Shown here in pieces: positions 15,423-36,890 of a stretch of DNA of 64,000 bases; position 1 is the stretch's first letter, and the number at the start of each line of letters is the position of its first letter. The notes beneath the pieces are model-generated. The model searched no databases. It was given only the letters and a program-made list of their open reading frames with translations, and was not told where the DNA came from. The stretch is from Anaerolineales bacterium (lineage in GTDB: Bacteria; Chloroflexota; Anaerolineae; Anaerolineales; Villigracilaceae): the NCBI GenBank assembly GCA_030583925.1, contig CP129482.1, positions 1-64,000 on the forward strand, written 5' to 3'. The position numbers and the translations under genes are program-made.

Positions 15423-17159
15423 ATGTTAACCTCTCATACCAATAAAATGTCTCAAGCGCCGCTTGAGATGAATCTAAACGCCGCCACGGATCATGTTGAT
15501 TTGGAAGGCTGGATGCCTCCTCAGGAGGGGATTGCGCCGTCCATGCGCGTCGGCCGCGCGTGGATAAATATTTTGTGGATAATTCCTCTCGCGGTGGTCT
15601 CTCTGATCTTGATGATCGTCGTTGCGCAGCAACTGCGAACGTTTCCAGCCGTGCAGGAATTTATTCAACGTTATCCCGGCGATGCGTCTCCTGTCCCGGT
15701 GACTTCGGGTTTCCCGTTGTGGCTCAGGGTACAGCATTTCTTCAATTTTTTCTTTATGTTGTTTATTATTCGCGCCGGCATTCAAATTCTGGCTGATTTT
15801 CCGCGCCTTTTCCTGCGGCGGGATTGCACGCCGGGGTCCGAATGGTTCCATTTTCAACGCAGTGTCCCGCAAGACCGGCTGTGGACATCCAAAGATGATT
15901 CGGTGACGCTTCCCAAATGGCTTGGCATCCCGGGCATCCGTCACTCGGTGGGGTTGGCGCGCTGGTGGCATTTTTCCTTCGATCTGCTGTGGGTGCTGAA
16001 CGGACTGGTCTTCTATGTTCTGATCTTTTCCACTGACCAATGGAGGCGGATCGTGCCAACGAGTTGGTCTGTCTTCCCCAATGCGCTCTCGACTCTCATC
16101 CAGTATTTTTCCTTGCAGTTTCCTGTGGAGCATGGCTGGCTGGTCTATAACGGCTTGCAACAATTGGTTTATTTCATCACTGTGTTTATCGCCGCGCCTT
16201 TGGCATTCATAACGGGCGTATTGCAAGGACCGGCATTTTCCAATCGGCTCGGCTTGATTGCGAAGGTCCTGAACCGTCAGTTGGCGCGGACGATCCATTT
16301 TGCCGTACTCTGCTGGTTCCTCTTTTTCATTTTCGTTCATACCACGTTGGCGCTCATCACGGGAATGCGCGGGAACTTGAATCGGATATTCTTGGGAATT
16401 AATGACGTCTCCAGTTGGAACGGGGTTGGGGTCTACCTGCTGGTGTTGGCATTGCTCGCGACGATTTGGTTTCTGGCATCGCCTTTCACCATTCGATACG
16501 CGCGTAGACTTCAAAAAGCGGGCGAAATGCTGGTGGGCGGGATCAAATCTTTGGCTGAACTCTGGGAGCCAAATACCACTTATTCAGAGAGGGATATCTC
16601 GCCCTATTTTTGGGTGAATGGAACGCTCCCAACGTCCAATGAATACAACGCGCTTCAAAAGAATGATTTTGTCAATTACAAGTTGCGCGTCGGCAGGTTG
16701 GTAGAAAACCCGCAAACGTTTTCTTACGAAGAACTTAAAGCCATGCCAAAACAAGAGCAGATTACGAAACACTTCTGCATTCAGGGCTGGTCTGGTGTGG
16801 CGAAGTGGGGAGGCGTTCCTGTGCGGCACATTCTTGAGATTGTGAAGCCGAAGCCTGAGGCTCGTTATGTGGTCTTTTATTCCTTTGCGGAAGGAGCCGA
16901 TGGCGGTTTATACTACGACGTTCACTCCATGAGAAATATGCGTTATAAATTGAGTCTTCTCGCTTATGAAATGAACGGAGAACCGCTCAACTTCCTGCAT
17001 GGCGCGCCCCTGCGCCTGCGTTGTGAGAATCAATTGGGCTTCAAAATGGTCAAATGGATCCAAGCCATCGAGTTGGTGCATGATTTCAAGCATCTCGGCT
17101 CTGGTCAAGGAGGCTATAACGAAGACCATGAGTTTTATGGCAACCATATGCCGATTTGA
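15423..17159 (+). CDS. Membrane cytochrome b fused to a sulfite-oxidase-type molybdopterin domain
   Basis: A 578-aa two-part protein. The first ~370 residues hold six predicted membrane helices with histidines typical of haem b ligands (RVQHFFNFFF, ARWWHFSFDLLW, RTIHFAVLCW, FVHTTLAL). This is the layout of b561-like or formate/hydrogenase b subunits. The last ~180 residues are a SUOX/YedY-type oxidoreductase domain: KHFCIQGWSGVAKWGGV carries the Mo-ligand cysteine, and LRLRCENQLGFKMVKWI is the usual second motif. Haem and Mo centre on one chain suggest electron flow between the quinone pool and a sulfoxide- or sulfite-like substrate. There is no Tat signal. Positively charged loops predict the Mo domain on the cytoplasmic side, which is unusual. 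GGAG precedes the ATG. The MarR operator lies about 75 bases upstream. Confidence 0.85.
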   Translation: MLTSHTNKMSQAPLEMNLNAATDHVDLEGWMPPQEGIAPSMRVGRAWINILWIIPLAVVSLILMIVVAQQLRTFPAVQEFIQRYPGDASPVPVTSGFPLWLRVQHFFNFFFMLFIIRAGIQILADFPRLFLRRDCTPGSEWFHFQRSVPQDRLWTSKDDSVTLPKWLGIPGIRHSVGLARWWHFSFDLLWVLNGLVFYVLIFSTDQWRRIVPTSWSVFPNALSTLIQYFSLQFPVEHGWLVYNGLQQLVYFITVFIAAPLAFITGVLQGPAFSNRLGLIAKVLNRQLARTIHFAVLCWFLFFIFVHTTLALITGMRGNLNRIFLGINDVSSWNGVGVYLLVLALLATIWFLASPFTIRYARRLQKAGEMLVGGIKSLAELWEPNTTYSERDISPYFWVNGTLPTSNEYNALQKNDFVNYKLRVGRLVENPQTFSYEELKAMPKQEQITKHFCIQGWSGVAKWGGVPVRHILEIVKPKPEARYVVFYSFAEGADGGLYYDVHSMRNMRYKLSLLAYEMNGEPLNFLHGAPLRLRCENQLGFKMVKWIQAIELVHDFKHLGSGQGGYNEDHEFYGNHMPI

Positions 17160-23098: not shown

Positions 23099-23254
23099 AC
23101 GATGCAGGAGGACAAAACAACAAGTTCAGTGTACCATGACACTCGCGAACAGATTTCGTTGACATCGCAATTCTCATCTCCCAAAAATCATCAACCTGAT
23201 TGAAAACCGTCATCAACCAAATATTCTTTCAACTTAATGCCGCCACCTAGAATT

Positions 23255-23302: not shown

Positions 23303-25732
23303 GTGATTATCTCAAACAAAAACATTAAACTATTTTTTGCGGCGCTTCTTGTCGTTACTGGATTTTTGAACATACATATCGCCCGCGCCCAAACCGCGCC
23401 CGTGTGGGATTCTGCCCAGCAAATTCGCGACCTCGCCTTTCAAGCCCAAAGCGAGTTATACGAAGCCGCGCGCGCCAGTGATTCATCCGCGCATTATCAA
23501 GCCGCCGCAGACTTAATAGACCAAGCCGCGAAAATTTATCAGACGAGTTTGCAACCTGCGTATCAAGAATCCGCTCCCGAAGCGGACGCGCTGGTTTCGG
23601 ATTCATTGACTCGCGCGCGCGCCGCCGCATTGGATGGAGATTCAGCCACGCTCGCCGCCGCGCGCGGACGCCTCTGGACTGCGCTCTTGCAGGGTAGCCA
23701 AACCCTGACCTTATCCACGCTGAAGGCGGGTGACTCCGCCGCCGCCGCTGAGTGGCTGAGATTGCGCGAGTATCGTACAGCGACTCGCGTCAACACGGTG
23801 GACGATCCGTCAGCGAAGGCGATTGCCAACGTGGAACAGAATCAACTGTCGGCGGAGGAAGCGGCGGACATCATCGCCAACGATTTACGCGACTCATATT
23901 TCTTCCGTCTGCGCGATGCGTTGACTCAAATCGAATCTGCCGCCGAGAAAAATTTCCCCACCCGCGCCGCGGAATGGGCGGGACAGGCGGCGGGATATTT
24001 CTCCATCCTGCAAGCCGACATCCATGAAAAACTCGGCGCGGATGTGACAGTTTCTTTGCATGATTCTTTTTCCGCGCTTGAATCTGCCGCGTTGAATGAA
24101 GATTGGGCGGCGGTGAAAACGCAAGTGAAAAATATCCGCGAGGCGTTGAGTGGCTATCAACCTGTTGAACTCACATCCGCCGAAATTGCCCAGCGCGGAA
24201 AATTGCTTTATCTCTTCACCGATTTGGTGTATGTCGAATATAAAAACGGCGTGCGGGACGGACAGATTACGATTGCGATTGAATATCAGGAAGCGGTCAC
24301 TTTTCGCGGACAAGCCGAAGCGGCTTTTGAAGAATTGCGCCCGTTCATCGCCGAAGCAGACCCCAACTCTGCCGCGCGTTTTGCAGAAATTTTGGACGAA
24401 CTCGAAACCGTCATCGCCAACCTTGGCGACCCGCAGGACGTGAAAGTTTTGACGGATGAAGGCTTGGGCATTATCGAATCCACGTTAAAAGTCAGCGCCG
24501 ATTCAAACGATACATCTGCATCATTTACCATCCTCAATACATTGCTGAATGAACTGCTTGTTTTCGTCCGCGAAGGGCGTTATGAAGACGCGGAACGCAC
24601 GCGCATCGAAGCCTACGCCATCCTTGAAAGCGGACCCGAACAACGGCTCGTGCATCGCGCGCCCATCCTGGCGCGTGAATTGGAAGGCTTGTTCTGGGAA
24701 GGCACCGAAGGGCAAAAAGGCTTGGCGACCTTAATCGCAGACAAAGCCCCAGCGGAAGAAATTGCCGCGAGTGTGAATCAACTCAACGTTAAGTTGGATG
24801 AAGCGGAAGATTTTCTATCCGTTGGCATGAGCGGTTTTCTCGCCGTCATCAACAGCATGGTCATCATCCTGCGCGAAGGTTTGGAAGCAGTGCTGATTCT
24901 CGGCGCGATTCTCGGTTACTTACGCGCCACCGACAGCCCGAAAAAATTCACTGCATGGGTGTATCTTGGCATTGCCGCCGCAATTTTATTAAGCCTTGCA
25001 ACCTGGTGGGCGGCGGAAACGTTTATCACCATCACCGTGGCGGGGCGTGAAATCATCGAAGGCGTGGCGAGTTTAGTGGCGGTGTTGGTGTTGTTCTACG
25101 TCACCAACTGGCTGTTTGAAAAAGTATATGTTGTGGATTGGATCGCTTTCGTCAAAGAGCAGGTCAGCAAGGCGCTGTCCAACGGTTCGGCGCTGGCGTT
25201 GGCGGGCTTGGGCTTCACAGTTGTGTACCGCGAAGGATTTGAAACCGTGTTGTTTTATCAAGCCCTGGCGTTTGACGCTTCGGCAAGTTCAATTTTGTTG
25301 GGCTTTGTCATCGGCAGTTTAATCATCCTCGCGGTGGCTTATGCCATTTTGAAAATGAGCAAACGCCTGCCGCTCAAACCATTCTTTACCGTGACGGGAA
25401 TTTTATTGATGGCGCTTGCCTTCAACCTGATGGGTTCGGGCATCCGCGAACTGCAAGAAGCAGGCGTCATCTCCGCTCATTTGCTGACGTGGATTCCAGA
25501 AAATTTAATTTTGATGGAACTCTTCGGCATCTTCCCCACGCTCGAAACATCGCTCGCGCAAGTTTTATTTTTGATGGTCTTAATCGCCACGTTTGCTTAT
25601 AGCCTGTGGCGTAAGAAAAAGAAAGATGCCCTCACCCTAACCCTCTCCCAAAGGGAGAGGGGACTCTCTTCCCCCAATGGGGGAAAGGCTGGGGATGAGG
25701 GAAAGAATCTCATCACACCCTCAAAGGAGTAA
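23303..25732 (+). CDS. FTR1-family iron permease with long N-terminal extracytoplasmic region
   Basis: An 809-aa protein. A signal peptide (FFAALLVVTGFLNIHIARA) precedes about 470 residues of Ala/Glu-rich helical sequence, probably extracytoplasmic. The FTR1 domain then has about seven membrane helices. Both iron-binding motifs are present: REGLEAVLIL (about residue 523) and REGFETVLFY (about residue 643). FTR1/EfeU permeases move iron coupled to oxidation of Fe(II). The N-terminal helical region may act as an iron-collecting or EfeO-contacting part (inference). The last ~35 residues (DALTLTLSQRERG to the end) are translated repeat DNA (25628-25702). The GTG start at 23303 has AGAGGAA upstream. 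The next gene follows after seven bases. Confidence 0.9.
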   Translation: MIISNKNIKLFFAALLVVTGFLNIHIARAQTAPVWDSAQQIRDLAFQAQSELYEAARASDSSAHYQAAADLIDQAAKIYQTSLQPAYQESAPEADALVSDSLTRARAAALDGDSATLAAARGRLWTALLQGSQTLTLSTLKAGDSAAAAEWLRLREYRTATRVNTVDDPSAKAIANVEQNQLSAEEAADIIANDLRDSYFFRLRDALTQIESAAEKNFPTRAAEWAGQAAGYFSILQADIHEKLGADVTVSLHDSFSALESAALNEDWAAVKTQVKNIREALSGYQPVELTSAEIAQRGKLLYLFTDLVYVEYKNGVRDGQITIAIEYQEAVTFRGQAEAAFEELRPFIAEADPNSAARFAEILDELETVIANLGDPQDVKVLTDEGLGIIESTLKVSADSNDTSASFTILNTLLNELLVFVREGRYEDAERTRIEAYAILESGPEQRLVHRAPILARELEGLFWEGTEGQKGLATLIADKAPAEEIAASVNQLNVKLDEAEDFLSVGMSGFLAVINSMVIILREGLEAVLILGAILGYLRATDSPKKFTAWVYLGIAAAILLSLATWWAAETFITITVAGREIIEGVASLVAVLVLFYVTNWLFEKVYVVDWIAFVKEQVSKALSNGSALALAGLGFTVVYREGFETVLFYQALAFDASASSILLGFVIGSLIILAVAYAILKMSKRLPLKPFFTVTGILLMALAFNLMGSGIRELQEAGVISAHLLTWIPENLILMELFGIFPTLETSLAQVLFLMVLIATFAYSLWRKKKKDALTLTLSQRERGLSSPNGGKAGDEGKNLITPSKE
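25628..25702. repeat. Palindromic repeat family B encoding the FTR1 C-terminal tail
   Basis: CTCTCCCAAAGGGAGAG core preceded by CCCTCACCC, followed by a second palindrome CCCCCAATGGGGG and GGCTGGGGATGAGG. It is translated as the hydrophilic tail of the permease. Confidence 0.8.
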
Positions 25733-25739
25733 AGTACGA

Positions 25740-26924
25740 ATGAAGAAGAATTGGATCGCTTTCCTGACAGGAATCCTGACCCTTAACATCGCCCTCGCCG
25801 CCTGTGCGCCTCAAGCCACGCCGACAGTTGATTCTGCTCCGACAGAATCTGCCGCCGCCCAAGCCGATCTCGGCGCCGTCAAAGCCTACGCCGTGGAACA
25901 GGCGTCCCTGATGAAAGAAGCGACAGCCTCCCTGCGCGCCAACGCCGAAAAATATTACGCCGCCATCGCGCAGATCAAAGCCGACCAGCCCGATGCCAAT
26001 CCCTACGAAGTTTTGTGGGCGAATCATCCCGATGCAACAAAAGCCTTAATCGAAGGGATGCGCGCCGACTGGATGACCGCGCACAATCATTACGAATCGA
26101 ACGAAGGCATTATCGCAGGCGTTCCGTCATTGGCATATTACGATGGCTGGATTGACGCAGGCGCGCCCGCCTCTGAAGACCCCGAAGCCATTCAATGGAC
26201 ATTGACATTGGCAAACGGCACAAAATTGGAAAGCCCTGGCAACCTCTTCCACACCTTAGGCGAACCCATTTTGTACGGGACTGTAAGTGAATACGTCGGC
26301 TTGGCTGTGGACTTAAACGGAGACAGCAACGTGGGCTTAAGCGAAGCCCTGCCCGAAGCCGAAATGCTGCTCGCCACCGCGCAAGCGTTGGACATTGCCT
26401 CTGGTCAAATGTTGGATGCGGTGAACGCCTGGCAACCGACTACGGAAGATGCTTTCATGGCAATGGCGACGATGATCCCCACCATGAACGAATATTTTGA
26501 ACAATGGAAATTATCGTCCTTCGTTTCAGGCGATACCTCCGTGCAAATTAGTTTTGTCGCCGCCAGCCGCCTGCTGGATGTGACAGGCATTTTGCAAAGC
26601 CTCGATTTGACCTATGACAACGTCCGCCCTGTGGTTGGCGCAGTAGACTCCAAACTCGATGAGCAAATCGCCGCAGGCTTTACCGACCTTGTTTCGTATG
26701 TCGGCGATTTATACACAAAGGAAAAGGCTGGCACAGTCTTCACCCCCGAAGAAGCGGATGCCTTCGGCACCGAAGCGCAGGATAAAGCCACCGCGCTCGC
26801 CGCGCTGGTTGTCCAAGCCGCCGCCAAAGCGAACATCACGCTCGACCTCGAAGCGGAAGGCTGGTCTCCTGATGCGCCGCCCGCCATCGAAGCCGTTGCC
26901 CCCGCGCCCGCGCCGATTGAGTAA
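25740..26924 (+). CDS. EfeO/imelysin-like (M75) lipoprotein
   Basis: A 394-aa lipoprotein. ATG at 25740 has AAAGGAG upstream. Lipobox LAAC (NIALAACAP) predicts lipid anchoring. The rest is helical with repeated short helices and the sequence AHNHYESNEG, which resembles the HXXE-type motif of imelysin/EfeO metal sites. The gene position right after an FTR1/EfeU-type permease supports an EfeO-like role: binding iron outside the membrane and handing it to the permease. No EfeB (haem peroxidase) is present. The C-terminal end is Pro/Ala-rich. I rate the family assignment as good, and the iron role as inference from context. Confidence 0.72.
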   Translation: MKKNWIAFLTGILTLNIALAACAPQATPTVDSAPTESAAAQADLGAVKAYAVEQASLMKEATASLRANAEKYYAAIAQIKADQPDANPYEVLWANHPDATKALIEGMRADWMTAHNHYESNEGIIAGVPSLAYYDGWIDAGAPASEDPEAIQWTLTLANGTKLESPGNLFHTLGEPILYGTVSEYVGLAVDLNGDSNVGLSEALPEAEMLLATAQALDIASGQMLDAVNAWQPTTEDAFMAMATMIPTMNEYFEQWKLSSFVSGDTSVQISFVAASRLLDVTGILQSLDLTYDNVRPVVGAVDSKLDEQIAAGFTDLVSYVGDLYTKEKAGTVFTPEEADAFGTEAQDKATALAALVVQAAAKANITLDLEAEGWSPDAPPAIEAVAPAPAPIE

Positions 26925-27199
26925 AATAACCCTCGTTCCTCACCCCTAACCCTTCTCCCAAAGGGAGAAGGGCTGGGGATGAGGGAAGAATACAAAGCAC
27001 TGCCCATTGTTCTCACCACAGAACACACGGAGAGAACGAAGATTTTAAATGTTTTTCTCTGTGGACTCTGTGATCTCTGTGGTAAAGCGGGTTTTTACTC
27101 CACTTAAACCTGATGAGCCAAAACACCTTAATACCCCTTGTGTACCTTTGTGACCCTTTGTGGTGAAGATCACCCCAGTAAAATAAAGTGAGCAGTTCC
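26925..27199. repeat. Repeat-filled intergenic region between the EfeO-like and cytochrome b genes
   Basis: It contains a family B palindrome (26938-26984, CTTCTCCCAAAGGGAGAAG core), then an element of the CACAGAG...CTCTGTGG type (about 27014-27083), then TTGTGTACCTTTGTGACCC-type sequence. I see no gene in it. Whether the cytochrome genes share the iron operon transcript or have a promoter hidden here is unclear. Confidence 0.7.
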
Positions 27200-27763
27200 A
27201 TGATTTCAAACGTAACCGCCAAAACAGCGCAAGTTCAAAATATAAAAACCCGCACATCCCCCGCGAACGCCATCAAGAGCTATCTTTTGCCGTTCATGGT
27301 TCTTTTTGCTGTCGCTATCATCAGCGGATTATTCTATTACCTTGTGCCGCGCTCATGGAATTGGCTCGCCTCACAAACCGCATTGTGGATTCACCTGATT
27401 ACGGGTATTGTCAGTTTCTTTTTTCTAGTCCCGTATGTTTTATCGCATCACAAAGATAAAAAAGAAGCCTTCATCAATCTGCTCTTCGTCTGGAGCGCTT
27501 TTCGCCGCCGCGAAAATGAAAGAGACTGGTCATATCAACAGCGCATCTTCGGTCACATCCTGAATTGGATCATGGCATTGCTCGGATTAAGCGGCTTGCT
27601 TCTCCTCATCCCCAGCATTTTATGGATGAGCGGCACAGTCTGGATGGCAGGTTATTCCGCTTATAAAATTGCCAACCTGGCGCATTTGGGGCTTGCGCTT
27701 CTCTCGCTGGCTTTTATTGGCTTTCATGTCATCCGCAGACCGAAGCGCGTCAAACGACAATAA
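27200..27763 (+). CDS. Four-helix membrane protein, cytochrome b-like
   Basis: A 187-aa protein with four predicted membrane helices: SYLLPFMVLFAVAIISGLFY, a helix at LWIHLITGIVSFFFLV, one at IFGHILNWIMALLGLSGLLLLI, and one at IANLAHLGLALLSLAFIGFH. A histidine sits in or at the edge of helices 2, 3 and 4 (WIHLI, FGHIL, NLAHLG, GFHVI). This is the pattern of a b-type di-haem bundle that exchanges electrons with quinone. ATG at 27200 or GTG at 27188 may start it; neither has a clear ribosome-binding site. Its stop and the next start overlap (TAATG), so it is tightly coupled to the pentahaem cytochrome gene and likely its membrane partner. Confidence 0.7.
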   Translation: MISNVTAKTAQVQNIKTRTSPANAIKSYLLPFMVLFAVAIISGLFYYLVPRSWNWLASQTALWIHLITGIVSFFFLVPYVLSHHKDKKEAFINLLFVWSAFRRRENERDWSYQQRIFGHILNWIMALLGLSGLLLLIPSILWMSGTVWMAGYSAYKIANLAHLGLALLSLAFIGFHVIRRPKRVKRQ

Positions 27764-29301
27764 TGAAAAAATTGCGTATCAACAAGCCAACTCGATTTTT
27801 ACTGATAGGCGGAGTTCTCTCCGCCTTTGCGCTTTTTGCCGCCATTTTTATTTTGCCCAAACCACAAGGCACGGGTCAGGCTATCGGCGCAGACGTTCCC
27901 TTCTACTCCATGCCGTGGGGCGATAATCCCTTCGCGCCAGGCAACATGCAAACCACAGATGGGAAACTGCTCAACAACAAAGACATCCCCTCCGCCGAGT
28001 TCTGCGCCCAATGCCATCAGCAGGAATACCGCGAATGGATCAGTTCCATTCACTCCGTCACGGGACCCGATATTATTTACGAAACCGCCATCAGCAACAA
28101 CGAACTCGCCCACAAGAACCGTCACGGCACGGAGAAAATCCGCTGGTGCGATTCGTGTCACGAACCCGTCAACCTGCTCATGGGTGAGATTAATCCGCTC
28201 CCTGTCGTTGGTCCCAGCCCTGTCACTGCCGAAGGGACGACCTGTATCATCTGTCACACCGCCGTCAGCGCCGACCCGCTGGCAGGTAACGGCGCGATCA
28301 CGCTTGACATCAACAACATCAACAACTACACCGAAGCGCTCATCATGGCGGCGCCCGCCGAACACGCCCGCGATATGCAAGCCAAATCGCATAACCCGCT
28401 CATGGGCAGTTCCGATTTTTGCGGCGCGTGTCACACCGAGATTCGTCCTGTCGAAGTCAACGGCACACAGCCCATGCACTTGCAAAACACATTTGAAGAA
28501 TGGCAGAAGAGCAAGTACGCCGAAAAAAATATCCAATGTCAGGATTGTCACATGCACCCTGACCCAGCGGAGTTCATCTCGCAGTTAAACGAAACAGGTC
28601 AAGTTCCAGAAAGAATCGTTTCGCATCGCTTCGTGGGCGTGAATTATCTGCTGACCGATTCTAATCTGCCATCCAATCTGGTGACTTATCTGCGCGGCGG
28701 ACTTCCGCCTGGCGGCATTTCAACTGATGAGTGGAAAGCCGATCTACTCGAACAAAACCGCCTCATTCTTGACCTTTTACAGACAGCGGCAGACCTCAAC
28801 ATTTCTGCCCCTTCAAGCATTTCCCCCAACTCCGAAGCGAATCTGGACGTGACCATCACCAACAGCGGAGCGGGTCACAGCCTGCCCACAGGACCGCTCG
28901 ACCAGCGTCACATGTGGCTCGAAGTCAAAGTGACTGATGCGGCGGGCAAGGTTGTTTATCACAGCGGTTGGTTCGACGATAAGACAGGGCAAATTGACCC
29001 GAACGCCGTCATCTACCAAAAGATTCTCACCGACAAAAACGGCGCGACCATCTACGAACATATCCTCTTTAACGTGGAAAAATATCACTACACCCGCGAC
29101 CCCATCCCCGCCAATGCCAGCGACACGATTCCCTACAGGTTCACTGTGCCTGCGGATGCGCAAGGTCCGCTCAACGTGGAGACCACCCTCTGGTATCGCC
29201 TCGCCCTGCAAGAGTTCGTCACATACAGTTTGAAACTGGACCTCATTCTCCCGCCTGTGATGATGGAGCAGACGGTGACTGAGATACCGGTGCAAGAATA
29301 A
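27763..29301 (+). CDS. Pentahaem cytochrome c with membrane anchor
   Basis: A 512-aa protein: an N-terminal membrane segment (FLLIGGVLSAFALFAAIFIL) and then five CXXCH haem sites at about residues 81, 129, 161, 220 and 259 (CAQCH, CDSCH, CIICH, CGACH, CQDCH). The EWISSIHS stretch after the first site is typical of cytochrome c554-like multihaem proteins. The C-terminal ~200 residues contain no haem motifs and look like a beta-sandwich (LDVTITNSGAGHSLPTG and following). It would sit outside the cytoplasmic membrane. Overlapping start with the membrane cytochrome gene suggests a quinone-linked pair. Position behind an FTR1/EfeO pair raises the idea that it handles the electrons from iron oxidation (inference). 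Confidence 0.88.
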   Translation: MKKLRINKPTRFLLIGGVLSAFALFAAIFILPKPQGTGQAIGADVPFYSMPWGDNPFAPGNMQTTDGKLLNNKDIPSAEFCAQCHQQEYREWISSIHSVTGPDIIYETAISNNELAHKNRHGTEKIRWCDSCHEPVNLLMGEINPLPVVGPSPVTAEGTTCIICHTAVSADPLAGNGAITLDINNINNYTEALIMAAPAEHARDMQAKSHNPLMGSSDFCGACHTEIRPVEVNGTQPMHLQNTFEEWQKSKYAEKNIQCQDCHMHPDPAEFISQLNETGQVPERIVSHRFVGVNYLLTDSNLPSNLVTYLRGGLPPGGISTDEWKADLLEQNRLILDLLQTAADLNISAPSSISPNSEANLDVTITNSGAGHSLPTGPLDQRHMWLEVKVTDAAGKVVYHSGWFDDKTGQIDPNAVIYQKILTDKNGATIYEHILFNVEKYHYTRDPIPANASDTIPYRFTVPADAQGPLNVETTLWYRLALQEFVTYSLKLDLILPPVMMEQTVTEIPVQE

Positions 29302-29570
29302 AAGACAAACGTGTCCGCTTCGGCGGGGGCGTTTTCAGTTATGCCTTAAACTTTGCCGGTAATAAGCCAAAAATCTGTTTTGGTCAAAGATAAACGCTGG
29401 CTTACGCTGATTCAAAGAAAAAACCCGCGTTCTCTGCGTTTATCTGCATCCTAATAAAGTCCCTTTGAACATTTCTTGCCGCCAGACCGTTTTGCAAGTT
29501 GCGCGGTGTTACTTTTCGCCGATTCTCCGTCATGTACCTTGAATATCCGCACTTTTATGTAGGAGCGCAC
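29302..29570. other. Intergenic region: weak terminator and a degenerate repeat
   Basis: A GC-rich stem around TCCGC-TTCG-GCGGG followed by GTTTT (29308-29336) may terminate the cytochrome transcript. At about 29387-29455 lies an element with imperfect inverted ends (ATAAACGCTGG near the start, CGTTTATCTGC near the end), of the type common between genes in such genomes. I see no gene here. Confidence 0.45.
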
Positions 29571-32531: not shown

Positions 32532-35500
32532 CTATGGCAGATGGATTCTTATTTCGCAAGCCGTGTCGGTATCTGTGCCGGAGCCGCCGTTGCAGGCATC
32601 GTTACCTGCGCCGCCGTCCAGCGCGTCGTTGCCCGAGCCGCCGCGGACGACATCGTTCTCATCGCCGCCAGCCACGCTATCCGCGCCTGAACCGCCGTCT
32701 ACCACATCCTTGTCCAAGCCGCCGTCCAACACATCTGCGCCGTCGGCGCCGAAGAGCGTGTCCTTACCCTCTTCTCCATACAGCGTGTCGTTCCCCCAAT
32801 CGCCGGAGATAACATCGTGTCCGGCGCCGCCGAGGATGGTGTCGTTGCCCATACCGCCGAAGACCACGTCATTGCCGCCCAGCGCGCACACCGTGTCGTT
32901 CCCACCGAGGGCGAGGATCGTATCGTTTCCGCCGGTCGCCACGATTACATCGTCGCCTGCAGAGCCGATCAGCGTGCCGTAATAGGTTTGCCCGTTTTGC
33001 AAGCCGCCGACGATCTTGCCATTCGCGTCCACGTAGATGGTGGCGTTCTTGCCATGACATTGGGGCAACAGGTTCAAACCGACGACGACCGGGTCGTGGT
33101 CCGATGAGCGATAGGGATCCGCCGCGTAGATGAGATCCTGCGCGGGTTTTTTGAAGGATGTGTCGTAGTCAATCAAGTCGGGCTCATCGGAGTTGATGTG
33201 CCAGTCGGTCATGCCGGTCACCTGCCCAAGCAGGGTGTTGTTTGCCAGCGCGTAATCGAGATAGCCGGTCTGCCCATCGAACACGTACGAATAGGCATCC
33301 TCGCCGTGGAATTGGAAAGCCAGATCGGTGAAGCCTCCGGCGCGGATGGCGTCAATCGATTCTTCTTTGTCATAGGAGTTGAGATCGCCCATGATGAGGA
33401 AGTCTGGGTCGCCGCTGTTGGTCGGGTCGGTGGCGAGCCAATTCACCAATGCGATGGCGGCGTTCTTGCGGGTTTGACTGCAATTGCCTTGCCCGTCGCC
33501 GAGGTCGGGATCGCCAACGTCGGTACAAGCGGAGCCTTTCGATTTGAAGTGATTGACGACAACCGTGAAGCGTTCGCCGGTGGCGAGCTCTTCGAAGGTC
33601 TGCGCCAGCGACGGGCGGCTCTTGGTATCGAGGAAGAGCGGGTCGTCCGTCGAATCGAGTATCTCGAAATTGCCGACCGGGGCTACGGTGGAGGTCTTGT
33701 AGACCAGACCCACGCGGATCGCGTCTGTGCCGATCACGCCCGTGTCAATGTAGGCATAGGTTCCCGCACCGAAGGCGGCGTTGAGTCCTTCCACGATGCC
33801 GTTCGGGTCGCCGAGCGGATTCACGCCAAGGGTATTTTCCAATTCGTTCAAGCCGATCACATCGGCGTTCAAACCGGTCAGCGCGGCGAGCAATTTATCG
33901 TGTTGGCGGGTGAACTCGAGCGGTTGGTTGGAATCGGCGCCGCGGCATTCTACGTTTTGAAGCGGTCCGCATTTATTATCCAATGGGTCGCCGGACGGGT
34001 AATCGAGCGTCAGGAAGAAGTTGAGCGTGTTCATCGAGGCGATGCGCAGGCGCCCACCCACATCTTCCGGCGTGGCGGTGCGCGGGTTGGCGTTGACGTA
34101 ATCGGCGCCTTGCGTCGGTTGGATGCGATAGAGACCGAACGAGTAGTCCATCACGCCGGTCACGTTTGCCACGGTGCTGCCGCCGCGAAACAAGTTCGAA
34201 AGGTCGAACACGTTCCCATTGGGGTGAAGCGCCGGGTCCGGGTTTTGAACCGAGCGTCCGTCGTCGAGCGTGATCTTATCCAGCAGGAAATCCTGAACCG
34301 CTTGCTGTTGCTCGGGTGAGCCGGGCTCGAATTCCGCCGTCGGCGTGAGATGCCGCTCGGAGGTCAACACGATCTCGCCGTACTGGTCGAAGTTGAAGTA
34401 TTCGGAGATGACCAACGCCTGCGGGAAGGTGACGCGCATGCCTTCGTACGCTTCAAAGTCCGTGACGGCTGTTACAGGCAGTGAGAGCGTCGCGGCAGTG
34501 GGGAGCGGGTTGCCGCTGGCGCAATTCAAGAAGTTCGTCACGTTTTTCAATTCGGTCAAACTGTTGAATTCGTCTACCGTGCCTTGAATGCGGACCCGGT
34601 CGCCGACAAGCGGGGTGTTCGCGCTGTTGTAGACGAAGATGCCTTCGGAGGTGGCGGGATTTGCATCGGCATCCGCATCTTCTTCTTGAACATGGAAGCC
34701 GCCGAATTGACCCGTGCCCTGGAAGGAACCGACAACTACGCCTTCAATGGTCACGACGGTATCATCCAACGGACTGGCGAGCCCACTGCCTTGAACATCA
34801 TGAATGAAGGTTGCCGCTTCGCCACAGACGAACGGTTGTGCCGCAGTGGTGAAGTTGAAGTTGTAATCGGCGCCCAGGTTTTGAATCGTACCATCCTGAT
34901 CGGCGACATTCGCCGCGACGATCGTGACGGAGCAAGACTCGACATATCCAAAGTTGACATCGGGGTCGAGGGTATAGTTTTGCGGTCCGCCGCTGACCAC
35001 GGCGGTATGCGCGCCGGTGTTGGCGCAAGAGATGGTGAACCAATTCCCTGTTACCGTGACTGCTTCGCTAAAGTTGACGTCAATGTTGCCGCTGACCGAG
35101 ATGTCGACGGCGCCGTTGGTCGGATTGGTTGTGGCGACCGTCGGCGGAACGTCAACGACGCATCCGCTGGTACCGGAGGAATTTGTCTCTCCGGGGGTGA
35201 TGCAACGAGCGCTGAGGTCAACATTGTTTTGGTTTGTATCTGTGCCGTCTGGGAGGCGCGAGATGCCGAGGTTTATACTCCCCGTAGTACCCGGATCTTC
35301 AAGCCCAACGCCGGAACCTTCAGTATAAGGCGCGCCCGTATTGCCTTCGTAACTTACGGTGTCAACCACTGAGGCGCCCTGCATGAGAGCAACTGCATCC
35401 GGCGCGCCGTTTTGGATAAAGTCGGTGTCTGGGCTATCATCCAAATCGCAGTTCTGAACGGTGGCAGTGTTGGCGCATACCACGAAGTAATCTCCCGCCG

Positions 35501-36620
35501 CCAAATTGATGTTCGGTAGATCAATGGTGTCGTATGTTGCGCCGCCGTTGCCGTTGATGAAAACCAGCGAGTAGGGATCTAAATTCACCGGGCTGGCACC
35601 GGTGTTCTTGATTTCGACAAACTCAGCTGTATCCGTGCTAGGTTGGTCATAGTCAATTTCATTAATGACCAGTGAAACAACAACCGGCGCGCTCACCGTA
35701 TTAAAGCTAAACGCGTAATCCGCGCTCATGGTGTCCGGCGGGTCGTTGGCGTCTGTGTCAGAGACGAGCGCGCTCATGACGGTCACTGTACAGGTTTCGC
35801 TATTGGCGAAATCGGCATCCGGGTTGAGCGTGAAGTTTTGCGGTCCACCGCTGACAACGGCTGTATGCGCGCCGCTCGTTCCGCACGAAACATCGAACCA
35901 ACTGCCGGATACGGCAACATCCTCGCTGAAATTCACGAGGATATCGCTGTCAACCGCGACATTGAGCGCGCCATTTGCAGGGGTTGTAGATGAAACCGAC
36001 GGGGCGGTATCACCGCTGCTGAACGACTGCCCAGTATTTGGGTTTCCAAATGTGTTGGCAGTCGTGGCTGTCCATGTGAAATCGCCGTAATTATCGCCAG
36101 CGCCGGTCAATTGCAGTGAAGAACCAAGAGGCTCAGTGCCAGCCTGACTCACACCAATATCTGTGCTAGTAACTCCATTGGCAACTCCGCCTACTCCGGC
36201 AAAACTTCCCTCATAACTAAGGAACTGCACCAAAGTAGAACCATTTGCCAAGGCAATTCCATCCGGCGAGCCATTTTGTATTCCATTGGAGGGGTAGGCA
36301 AGTACGACTGTTCCGTATCCGCCTTGCTGGTTTGGGATAATTCCGCTCAAGGCATCTGTATCGTATGCCGCGCCATTGGAAGCGTTATAAAGGATGATGC
36401 TCCAGCCGGTAAGGTCTGTCCCTGCGGGACCAGCGATCTCAATGGATTCACCGGCATCTGTCCCGGTATTATCGTAATGAATCTCATTGATAAAAATAGT
36501 AGATGTTGGGTTGTCAAATGAGCGCGGCGCCGCGTAGGCAGGTTGAATCACAGATACCATGCTCGTCAGTAAAGCCACGATCAACGCGAGTGAAAACGTT
36601 CCGGGTAGCAACTTATTCAT
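32532..36620 (-). CDS. Secreted ExeM/NucH-type nuclease with lamin-tail, Ig-like and RTX domains
   Basis: A 1362-aa extracellular protein. ATG at 36620 has GAGGAG upstream and begins a signal peptide ending near PAYAAP. In order: a lamin-tail domain (FINEIHYDNTGTD), a Big_5-type Ig domain (TPANGALNVAVDSDILVNFS), a second lamin-tail domain (LVINEIDYDQPSTDTAEF), a second Ig domain, and an OB-like segment (DTVVTIEGVVVGSFQG). The endonuclease/exonuclease/phosphatase domain follows, with RIASMNTLNFF, GLNELEN, NHFKSKGS, IMGDLNSYD and SSDHDPVVV. The last ~150 residues are RTX nonapeptide repeats (GGNDTILALGGNDTV and so on) that bind calcium. It should digest DNA outside the cell for phosphate or nucleotides. 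Gram-negative ExeM uses similar domains; here the likely host has one membrane. Confidence 0.9.
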   Translation of the reverse strand: MNKLLPGTFSLALIVALLTSMVSVIQPAYAAPRSFDNPTSTIFINEIHYDNTGTDAGESIEIAGPAGTDLTGWSIILYNASNGAAYDTDALSGIIPNQQGGYGTVVLAYPSNGIQNGSPDGIALANGSTLVQFLSYEGSFAGVGGVANGVTSTDIGVSQAGTEPLGSSLQLTGAGDNYGDFTWTATTANTFGNPNTGQSFSSGDTAPSVSSTTPANGALNVAVDSDILVNFSEDVAVSGSWFDVSCGTSGAHTAVVSGGPQNFTLNPDADFANSETCTVTVMSALVSDTDANDPPDTMSADYAFSFNTVSAPVVVSLVINEIDYDQPSTDTAEFVEIKNTGASPVNLDPYSLVFINGNGGATYDTIDLPNINLAAGDYFVVCANTATVQNCDLDDSPDTDFIQNGAPDAVALMQGASVVDTVSYEGNTGAPYTEGSGVGLEDPGTTGSINLGISRLPDGTDTNQNNVDLSARCITPGETNSSGTSGCVVDVPPTVATTNPTNGAVDISVSGNIDVNFSEAVTVTGNWFTISCANTGAHTAVVSGGPQNYTLDPDVNFGYVESCSVTIVAANVADQDGTIQNLGADYNFNFTTAAQPFVCGEAATFIHDVQGSGLASPLDDTVVTIEGVVVGSFQGTGQFGGFHVQEEDADADANPATSEGIFVYNSANTPLVGDRVRIQGTVDEFNSLTELKNVTNFLNCASGNPLPTAATLSLPVTAVTDFEAYEGMRVTFPQALVISEYFNFDQYGEIVLTSERHLTPTAEFEPGSPEQQQAVQDFLLDKITLDDGRSVQNPDPALHPNGNVFDLSNLFRGGSTVANVTGVMDYSFGLYRIQPTQGADYVNANPRTATPEDVGGRLRIASMNTLNFFLTLDYPSGDPLDNKCGPLQNVECRGADSNQPLEFTRQHDKLLAALTGLNADVIGLNELENTLGVNPLGDPNGIVEGLNAAFGAGTYAYIDTGVIGTDAIRVGLVYKTSTVAPVGNFEILDSTDDPLFLDTKSRPSLAQTFEELATGERFTVVVNHFKSKGSACTDVGDPDLGDGQGNCSQTRKNAAIALVNWLATDPTNSGDPDFLIMGDLNSYDKEESIDAIRAGGFTDLAFQFHGEDAYSYVFDGQTGYLDYALANNTLLGQVTGMTDWHINSDEPDLIDYDTSFKKPAQDLIYAADPYRSSDHDPVVVGLNLLPQCHGKNATIYVDANGKIVGGLQNGQTYYGTLIGSAGDDVIVATGGNDTILALGGNDTVCALGGNDVVFGGMGNDTILGGAGHDVISGDWGNDTLYGEEGKDTLFGADGADVLDGGLDKDVVDGGSGADSVAGGDENDVVRGGSGNDALDGGAGNDACNGGSGTDTDTACEIRIHLP

Positions 36621-36890
36621 GCAATTCTCCTCTGAATGGTGCGATGTGGTTTGGGTAAACAAAAACATGCCTCAAAGGCTTGGATGATTGTGAAGTTCGG
36701 ATTTTACGAACGCAAGACACCTCCTCGTGTACTCACAAACGATCCAACAGTATTCCAATTTCCCCGCCCGTCAATTTTAGGTGAAGCGCGGCAAAAAAGC
36801 AAGATAACTTGTAACCTATTGATGAACATTCATGCTTCGTCTTTCGTAGTGCGTAACCGTAGAGTCACATAGCGCGCAATAATTCAAAAC

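Follow-up and report, generated by a model that had tools for sequence, protein, structure and literature searches.

We analyzed a locus at positions 23303–29301 of a 64,000-nucleotide stretch (hereafter, the window) from an uncultured member of the Anaerolineae, Anaerolineales bacterium (assembly GCA_030583925.1, contig CP129482.1, positions 1–64,000), where genes for an FTR1-type iron permease and an EfeO-type lipoprotein are followed by genes for a cytochrome b (cyt b) and a pentahaem cytochrome c (cyt c). The open reading frames (ORFs), their identities, the common direction and the one-base overlap of the two cytochrome genes, as given in the initial annotation, were reproduced by ORF and profile checks. 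The four genes are:

23303–25732, plus strand: FTR1/EfeU-type iron permease, 809 residues (PF03239, 97.4 bits against a cut-off of 25.3)
25740–26924, plus strand: EfeO/EfeM-type M75 (imelysin) iron-binding lipoprotein (PF09375, 31.5 bits against 23.5)
27200–27763, plus strand: four-helix membrane cytochrome b, predicted to be di-haem (four hydrophobic helices, four invariant histidines)
27763–29301, plus strand: probably membrane-anchored pentahaem cytochrome c with a C-terminal beta-sandwich domain (five CXXCH motifs, AlphaFold model)

The permease, which is the sole FTR1 of its genome, has a signal peptide and an N-terminal extracytoplasmic domain of about 480 residues ahead of the membrane part, and both REXXE motifs in the membrane domain are intact (REGLE at 524 and REGFE at 643). 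Its scores with the narrow models (NCBI subfamily and EfeU equivalog) are below the cut-offs, 117.1 vs. 303.8 bits for TIGR00145 and 109.8 vs. 255 bits for NF041756. EfeO has the lipobox LAAC and, in the Pfam scan, no match to the cupredoxin domain; hence we assign it to the M75-only type, like the M75 lipoproteins without a cupredoxin domain that have been named EfeM (PMC9174327). The acidic residues E119xxE122 and D135/D139 are invariant among EfeO orthologs and fit the ExxE metal site reported in the same work (PMC9174327).

The start of cyt b was set at ATG 27200 rather than at GTG 27188 because relatives start there, and the overlap with cyt c is exactly one base (TAATG). Four histidines, His65 and His83 in helix 2 and His162 and His176 in helix 4, are invariant across Chloroflexota and Betaproteobacteria; a further one, His119, is conserved through the close Anaerolineae set and not in Betaproteobacteria. 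Histidine pairs of this kind on two helices are typical of proteins with two b haems, and the protein is predicted to be di-haem. A layout of four helices, with the histidines paired in the second and the fourth, is also that of cytochrome b561 and the Ni-hydrogenase cytochrome b (PF01292, prokaryotic cytochrome b561), a model matched by two of the 11 family members (best E 9.3e-10), with the window protein scoring under the cut-off for every Pfam model, PF01292 included.

The CXXCH motifs of cyt c, at positions 81, 129, 161, 220, and 259, are all invariant in 35 out of 35 aligned homologs, as are His288 and His372, and in the clade of FTR1-linked cytochromes described below His97, His201, and His433 are also invariant, and His400 nearly so. 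The single hydrophobic helix of the protein, at its N-terminus, shows no clear cleavage site, so that cyt c is probably membrane-anchored. The AlphaFold model, built from a diverse alignment (pLDDT 88.2, pTM 0.86), has as its best fold match the penta-haem c552 of Thermochromatium tepidum, 5ze8 (E 2.8e-15, TM 0.65 by target length; profile E 4.1e-11, 18% identity), and no other structure matched it strongly over the whole length. With its five CXXCH motifs and matching fold, cyt c belongs to the fold group of this protein. Both c552 and the multihaem selenoprotein MccSep/ExtKL likewise combine haem-binding and beta-sandwich domains in this order, the latter domain with an H-x-x-P-x-G-like motif, but the score against the model of the latter, 51.9 bits with a cut-off of 250 (NF040886), leaves cyt c outside the MccSep/ExtKL family. 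We know of no iron permease partner of either c552 or MccSep/ExtKL. An earlier cyt c model, based on 11 alignment rows of close relatives, was of low quality (pLDDT 44) and was set aside, and a combined alignment of cyt b and cyt c around a fused protein was dropped, the rows of cyt b being misaligned.

A lack of recurrence in other genomes had been named in the initial annotation as a refuting outcome, but the genes were found to recur across two phyla. In ten of the genomes of 150 relatives, FTR1, efeO, cyt b, and cyt c stand side by side in the order given; an eleventh, G083, has the last three genes, its contig beginning inside efeO, hence the missing FTR1. Full-length relatives of FTR1 (68–81% identity; 67–79% between the aligned orthologs of the nine cassettes and the window protein) are present in nine other genomes, cyt b in ten others and a close cyt c also in ten others, and these are the same genomes; that is, the contig edge of G083 aside, the three genes are found together or not at all. 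Most of the remaining relatives have a short FTR1 only (about 30–37% identity), with neither cytochrome at the thresholds used. The order and strand are constant across carrier loci, the FTR1–efeO spacing in relatives ranges from –4 to 40 bp, and the two cytochrome genes share 4 bp in seven of their ten loci. The flanking genes differ between G094, G112, the genomes G010/G012/G013, and the group of G000/G059/G015/G011, with the cassette whole in each; G094 and G112, both order-level carriers, are metagenome-assembled genomes with an estimated contamination of 5–7%, so that individual cases could be misbinned. A divergent cassette (L099/L121) keeps the gene order at 52% identity for FTR1, 47% for EfeO, 41% for cyt b, and 62% for cyt c. 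Pairwise distances of the four cassette proteins correlate (r from 0.885 to 0.962), as expected of any co-inherited set, which is not proof of interaction.

A genome scan with cyt c yielded the same gene set in further Anaerolineae and one match in an uncultured Dechloromonas. In the Dechloromonas family (Betaproteobacteria), the pentahaem cytochrome is present in 7 out of 200 genomes, and cyt b, cyt c, a transglutaminase, and FTR1 are clustered in all five sufficiently long loci, the contigs of the remaining two ending early. The order in the Dechloromonas locus L102 is a MoxR ATPase, a gene that we take to be DUF58-like, cyt b, pentahaem cyt c, a pilin resembling the type II secretion system protein G, a TgpA-type transglutaminase, and FTR1. 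In the five loci FTR1 is three or four genes downstream of cyt b–cyt c and 3–65 bp after the transglutaminase; in one locus (L125:8978–11104, minus strand) a single 708-residue ORF, a natural fusion, encodes both cytochromes within the same cluster as FTR1. As EfeO is not found at the betaproteobacterial loci, the core common to both phyla, judged by gene content, is FTR1, cyt b, and cyt c, with EfeO outside it. The suggestion that FTR1–EfeO forms a single unit with the two cytochromes is strongly supported by this recurrence across two phyla.

In the tree of 41 cyt c sequences, a single clade (support 100/99) unites the FTR1-linked cytochromes with those of four loci cut by contig ends, and it divides into two branches, one of Chloroflexota and one of Betaproteobacteria; G083 (L077) is counted here as linked, though only efeO adjoins on its contig. 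Around the outgroup cytochromes L123 and L171–L174 (25–30% identity), no FTR1 was found within 10–20 kb; this check covered these loci, those of L043–L056 being short and their wider context left out. A chance neighborhood is ruled out by the exact co-occurrence and the second phylum, and a lineage-specific accident of vertical inheritance, by the patchy presence of the cassette within a genus and the differing flanks of several carriers. A common origin of the FTR1 genes of the two phyla was also considered and is not claimed, the FTR1 tree being compatible with shared descent or with two separate pairings.

Known FTR1 systems pair the permease with a ferroxidase (PMC11966278, PMC3832793): the yeast permease moves ferric iron produced in place by the oxidase, an action also predicted for the bacterial FtrC (PMC11966278). 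In Bacillus subtilis, EfeB oxidizes ferrous iron and EfeO binds ferric iron; under microaerobic conditions EfeB helps the cell to use ferrous iron, whereas EfeUO is enough for the uptake of ferric iron (PMC3832793). The locus shares the FTR1-family permease and the M75-domain EfeO with EfeUOB of Escherichia coli and B. subtilis (YwbLMN), where Fe(II) is oxidized outside and ferric iron passes the permease, but differs in having cyt b and a pentahaem cyt c in place of the DyP haem peroxidase EfeB, and an EfeO without the cupredoxin domain. With FtrABCD/FtrAPBCD of Bordetella, Brucella, and Rubrivivax, which works with ferrous iron, it shares an FTR1-type permease and extra membrane and periplasmic partners, whereas electrons here would be handled by haem, not copper. 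Yeast Fet3–Ftr1 with the Fre reductases likewise combines a permease with a dedicated redox partner, but the oxidant there is an oxygen-requiring multicopper oxidase. EfeB and multicopper oxidases had been named in the initial annotation as the known partners, with the cupredoxin-type FtrABCD omitted.

An EfeB-type DyP peroxidase (TIGR01413) is absent from all 16 carrier genomes, the window genome included, with controls positive in three named genomes, in agreement with the earlier remark that EfeB is missing. Neither EfeB, a multicopper oxidase, nor a cupredoxin is encoded among the scanned flanking genes, a genome-wide search for a multicopper oxidase partner not having been made; the same holds for FtrA/P19, the FtrB cupredoxin, and FtrD, which have no Pfam match in the four genes or the scanned flanks and were not searched for genome-wide. 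No published FTR1–multihaem cytochrome system was found in the open-access literature searched, subscription papers being outside the search. We consider the gene set a genuine and conserved version of FTR1-type iron uptake that appears not to have been described before.

Other features in and around the cassette are:

23159–23188, plus strand: promoter-like site TTGACA-18-AAAAAT (10 of 12 consensus positions matched), just upstream of the operator
23188–23216, plus strand: Fur-like operator TCATCAACCTGATTGAAAACCGTCATCAA, a conserved motif 115 bp before the FTR1 start
25630–25703, plus strand: repeat element lengthening the FTR1 C-terminus, a copy of the repeat at 26933–26989
26933–26989, plus strand: hairpin resembling repetitive extragenic palindromic (REP) elements in the efeO–cyt b gap, an inverted repeat with 27-nt arms (81%)
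29316–29331, plus strand: terminator-like hairpin 15 bp after cyt c, weak and at chance frequency in the region

A 29-bp motif, TTTTCAACCNGGTTGAAAACNNNTTNCAA, is observed at –98 to –158 from FTR1 in 10 out of 12 Anaerolineae cassettes, where it is the top match of the whole locus in each, and is common to loci with unrelated flanks; its consensus was drawn from the same sequences, several of them near-copies, so that its strength is less than apparent. It is similar to the 17-bp consensus WTGAAAATNATTTTCAW of the Fur box that has been predicted for metal-reducing deltaproteobacteria (PMC545781). A genome-wide Fur regulon was considered and is not supported, as the further exact matches inspected are not at recognizable iron genes. 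The promoter-like site is weak, such sites occurring in near-chance numbers in the region, and no terminator-like site was found on the plus strand between efeO and cyt b. The C-terminus of FTR1, lengthened by the repeat, is not conserved in most relatives. Plasmid carriage was considered and rejected, since the blastn comparison with plasmids matched only the short repeat inside the 3′ end of FTR1; a 35-bp core of the REP-like repeat exactly matches many enterobacterial plasmids.

Several other arrangements were seen in passing. In family-f9 genomes (L078–L081) a long FTR1 (35% identity) is followed by membrane proteins and an apparent ECF-type ATPase with EcfT, with no cytochromes, and in L079 an efeO-like gene precedes it. 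Genome G385, which carries the divergent cassette, has a second efeO–FTR1 pair (L120:5882–9423; 41 and 35% identity) with no cytochromes within the contig stretch seen. At L171:5318–10925 a b–c fusion (695 residues, five CXXCH) comes right after a 1194-residue FG-GAP/UnbV-ASPIC/HEAT protein, FTR1 not being nearby, which hints at a distinct clade of the module that works with a different protein. Elsewhere in the window, a molybdopterin-binding oxidoreductase domain is fused to a cytochrome b561-type membrane domain (15423–17159), and a 1378-residue secreted protein (32532–36668, minus strand) has repeated domains and, by eye, RTX-like glycine–aspartate repeats near its C-terminal end.

While the association of the genes is well supported, the mechanism is offered as a hypothesis: with a probability of about one half, the products of all four genes make up a single system of iron uptake, where FTR1 works with a quinone-linked cyt b/c module in place of EfeB, a cupredoxin, or a multicopper oxidase. 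Placed in the position of EfeB, the module most simply would provide the electron exchange that is otherwise missing, and quinone would be the sink. EfeO, a lipoprotein held on the outside of the cytoplasmic membrane, would bind iron and deliver it to FTR1, cyt c, held at the outer face by its N-terminal helix, would exchange electrons with iron, and the di-haem cyt b would carry electrons through the membrane, either to quinone or from it, the haems being presumed loaded and the proteins possibly forming a physical complex. The most likely direction, at odds close to even, is oxidation of Fe(II) beside FTR1, with the electron passing from cyt c to cyt b and to quinone and Fe(III) entering through FTR1, so that the module would do the job of EfeB without oxygen or peroxide. 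Iron is the presumed substrate because of the identities of FTR1 and EfeO. The fullest version, an oxygen-independent FTR1 system in which the pentahaem cytochrome oxidizes ferrous iron and passes the electron via cyt b to the quinone pool, with no need for oxygen, peroxide, or copper, is given somewhat less than even odds.

In the main rival reading, electrons would flow in the opposite direction, from menaquinol via cyt b to cyt c, which would reduce Fe(III) outside, with EfeO binding and FTR1 importing the iron. Both an electron sink for Fe(II) oxidation and a ferric reductase had been suggested in the initial annotation, and both are treated here as hypotheses. Where a small membrane cytochrome b is joined to a multihaem cytochrome c, the pair is often a reductase driven by quinol, and c552 (5ze8), the nearest solved relative of cyt c, is reportedly a low-potential cytochrome. 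Position 97 of cyt c is Met in 15 out of 19 outgroup rows and His in the FTR1-linked clade, a possible change of haem ligand, and yeast Ftr1–Fet3–Fre1 pairs a reductase with the permease (PMC3832793), the reductases preceding Fet3/Ftr1. Still, FTR1 is understood to move ferric iron that is made in place or supplied by EfeO; a reductase alone would leave it without an oxidant, and no other ferroxidase is encoded among the scanned neighbors. We regard this direction as less likely. A similarly low chance is given to a respiratory module with its own iron supply, where cyt b/c would reduce some other substrate and FTR1–EfeO would merely be co-inherited or co-regulated to serve its need for iron. 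This agrees with the distant pentahaem relatives without FTR1 nearby (L123, L171–L174), a natural b–c fusion among them, and with the betaproteobacterial version lacking a detected EfeO, but in both phyla the FTR1 linkage is confined to one cytochrome clade, five haems are a trivial iron demand, and the cassette encodes no other respiratory subunit. Finally, the same architecture could serve another metal, e.g., manganese or lead, which some FTR1-family relatives are reported to handle, the choice of metal being unreadable from sequence; given the two intact REXXE motifs, the retained acidic metal-site residues of EfeO, and the Fur-like operator, this is quite improbable.

Several observations weigh against the proposed four-gene uptake system as well. 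The efeO–cyt b gap in the window, counted from ATG 27200, is 275 bp compared to 45–115 bp in most relatives, and a single transcript is therefore not certain, although the REP-like hairpin helps account for this length. Other exact matches of the operator motif in the genome, at the sites inspected, are inside or beside genes not recognizably linked to iron. In Betaproteobacteria, with EfeO not found and FTR1 three or four genes off among MoxR and transglutaminase genes, the link may be looser, and the FTR1 tree does not group the permeases of the two phyla as sisters. Moreover, if His97 is a haem ligand, the potential would be lower, a property that fits a reductase no less well than an oxidase of iron.

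FTR1 permeases are widespread, organisms of anoxic habitats included, while the described ferroxidase partners of FTR1, to our knowledge, all use oxygen, peroxide, or copper. The FTR1–cyt b–cyt c unit, present in two phyla, is a concrete candidate for a permease driven without any of these. If the proposal is true, iron import would be coupled directly to respiration. The association also provides a lead as to function for a clade of pentahaem cytochromes that had none.

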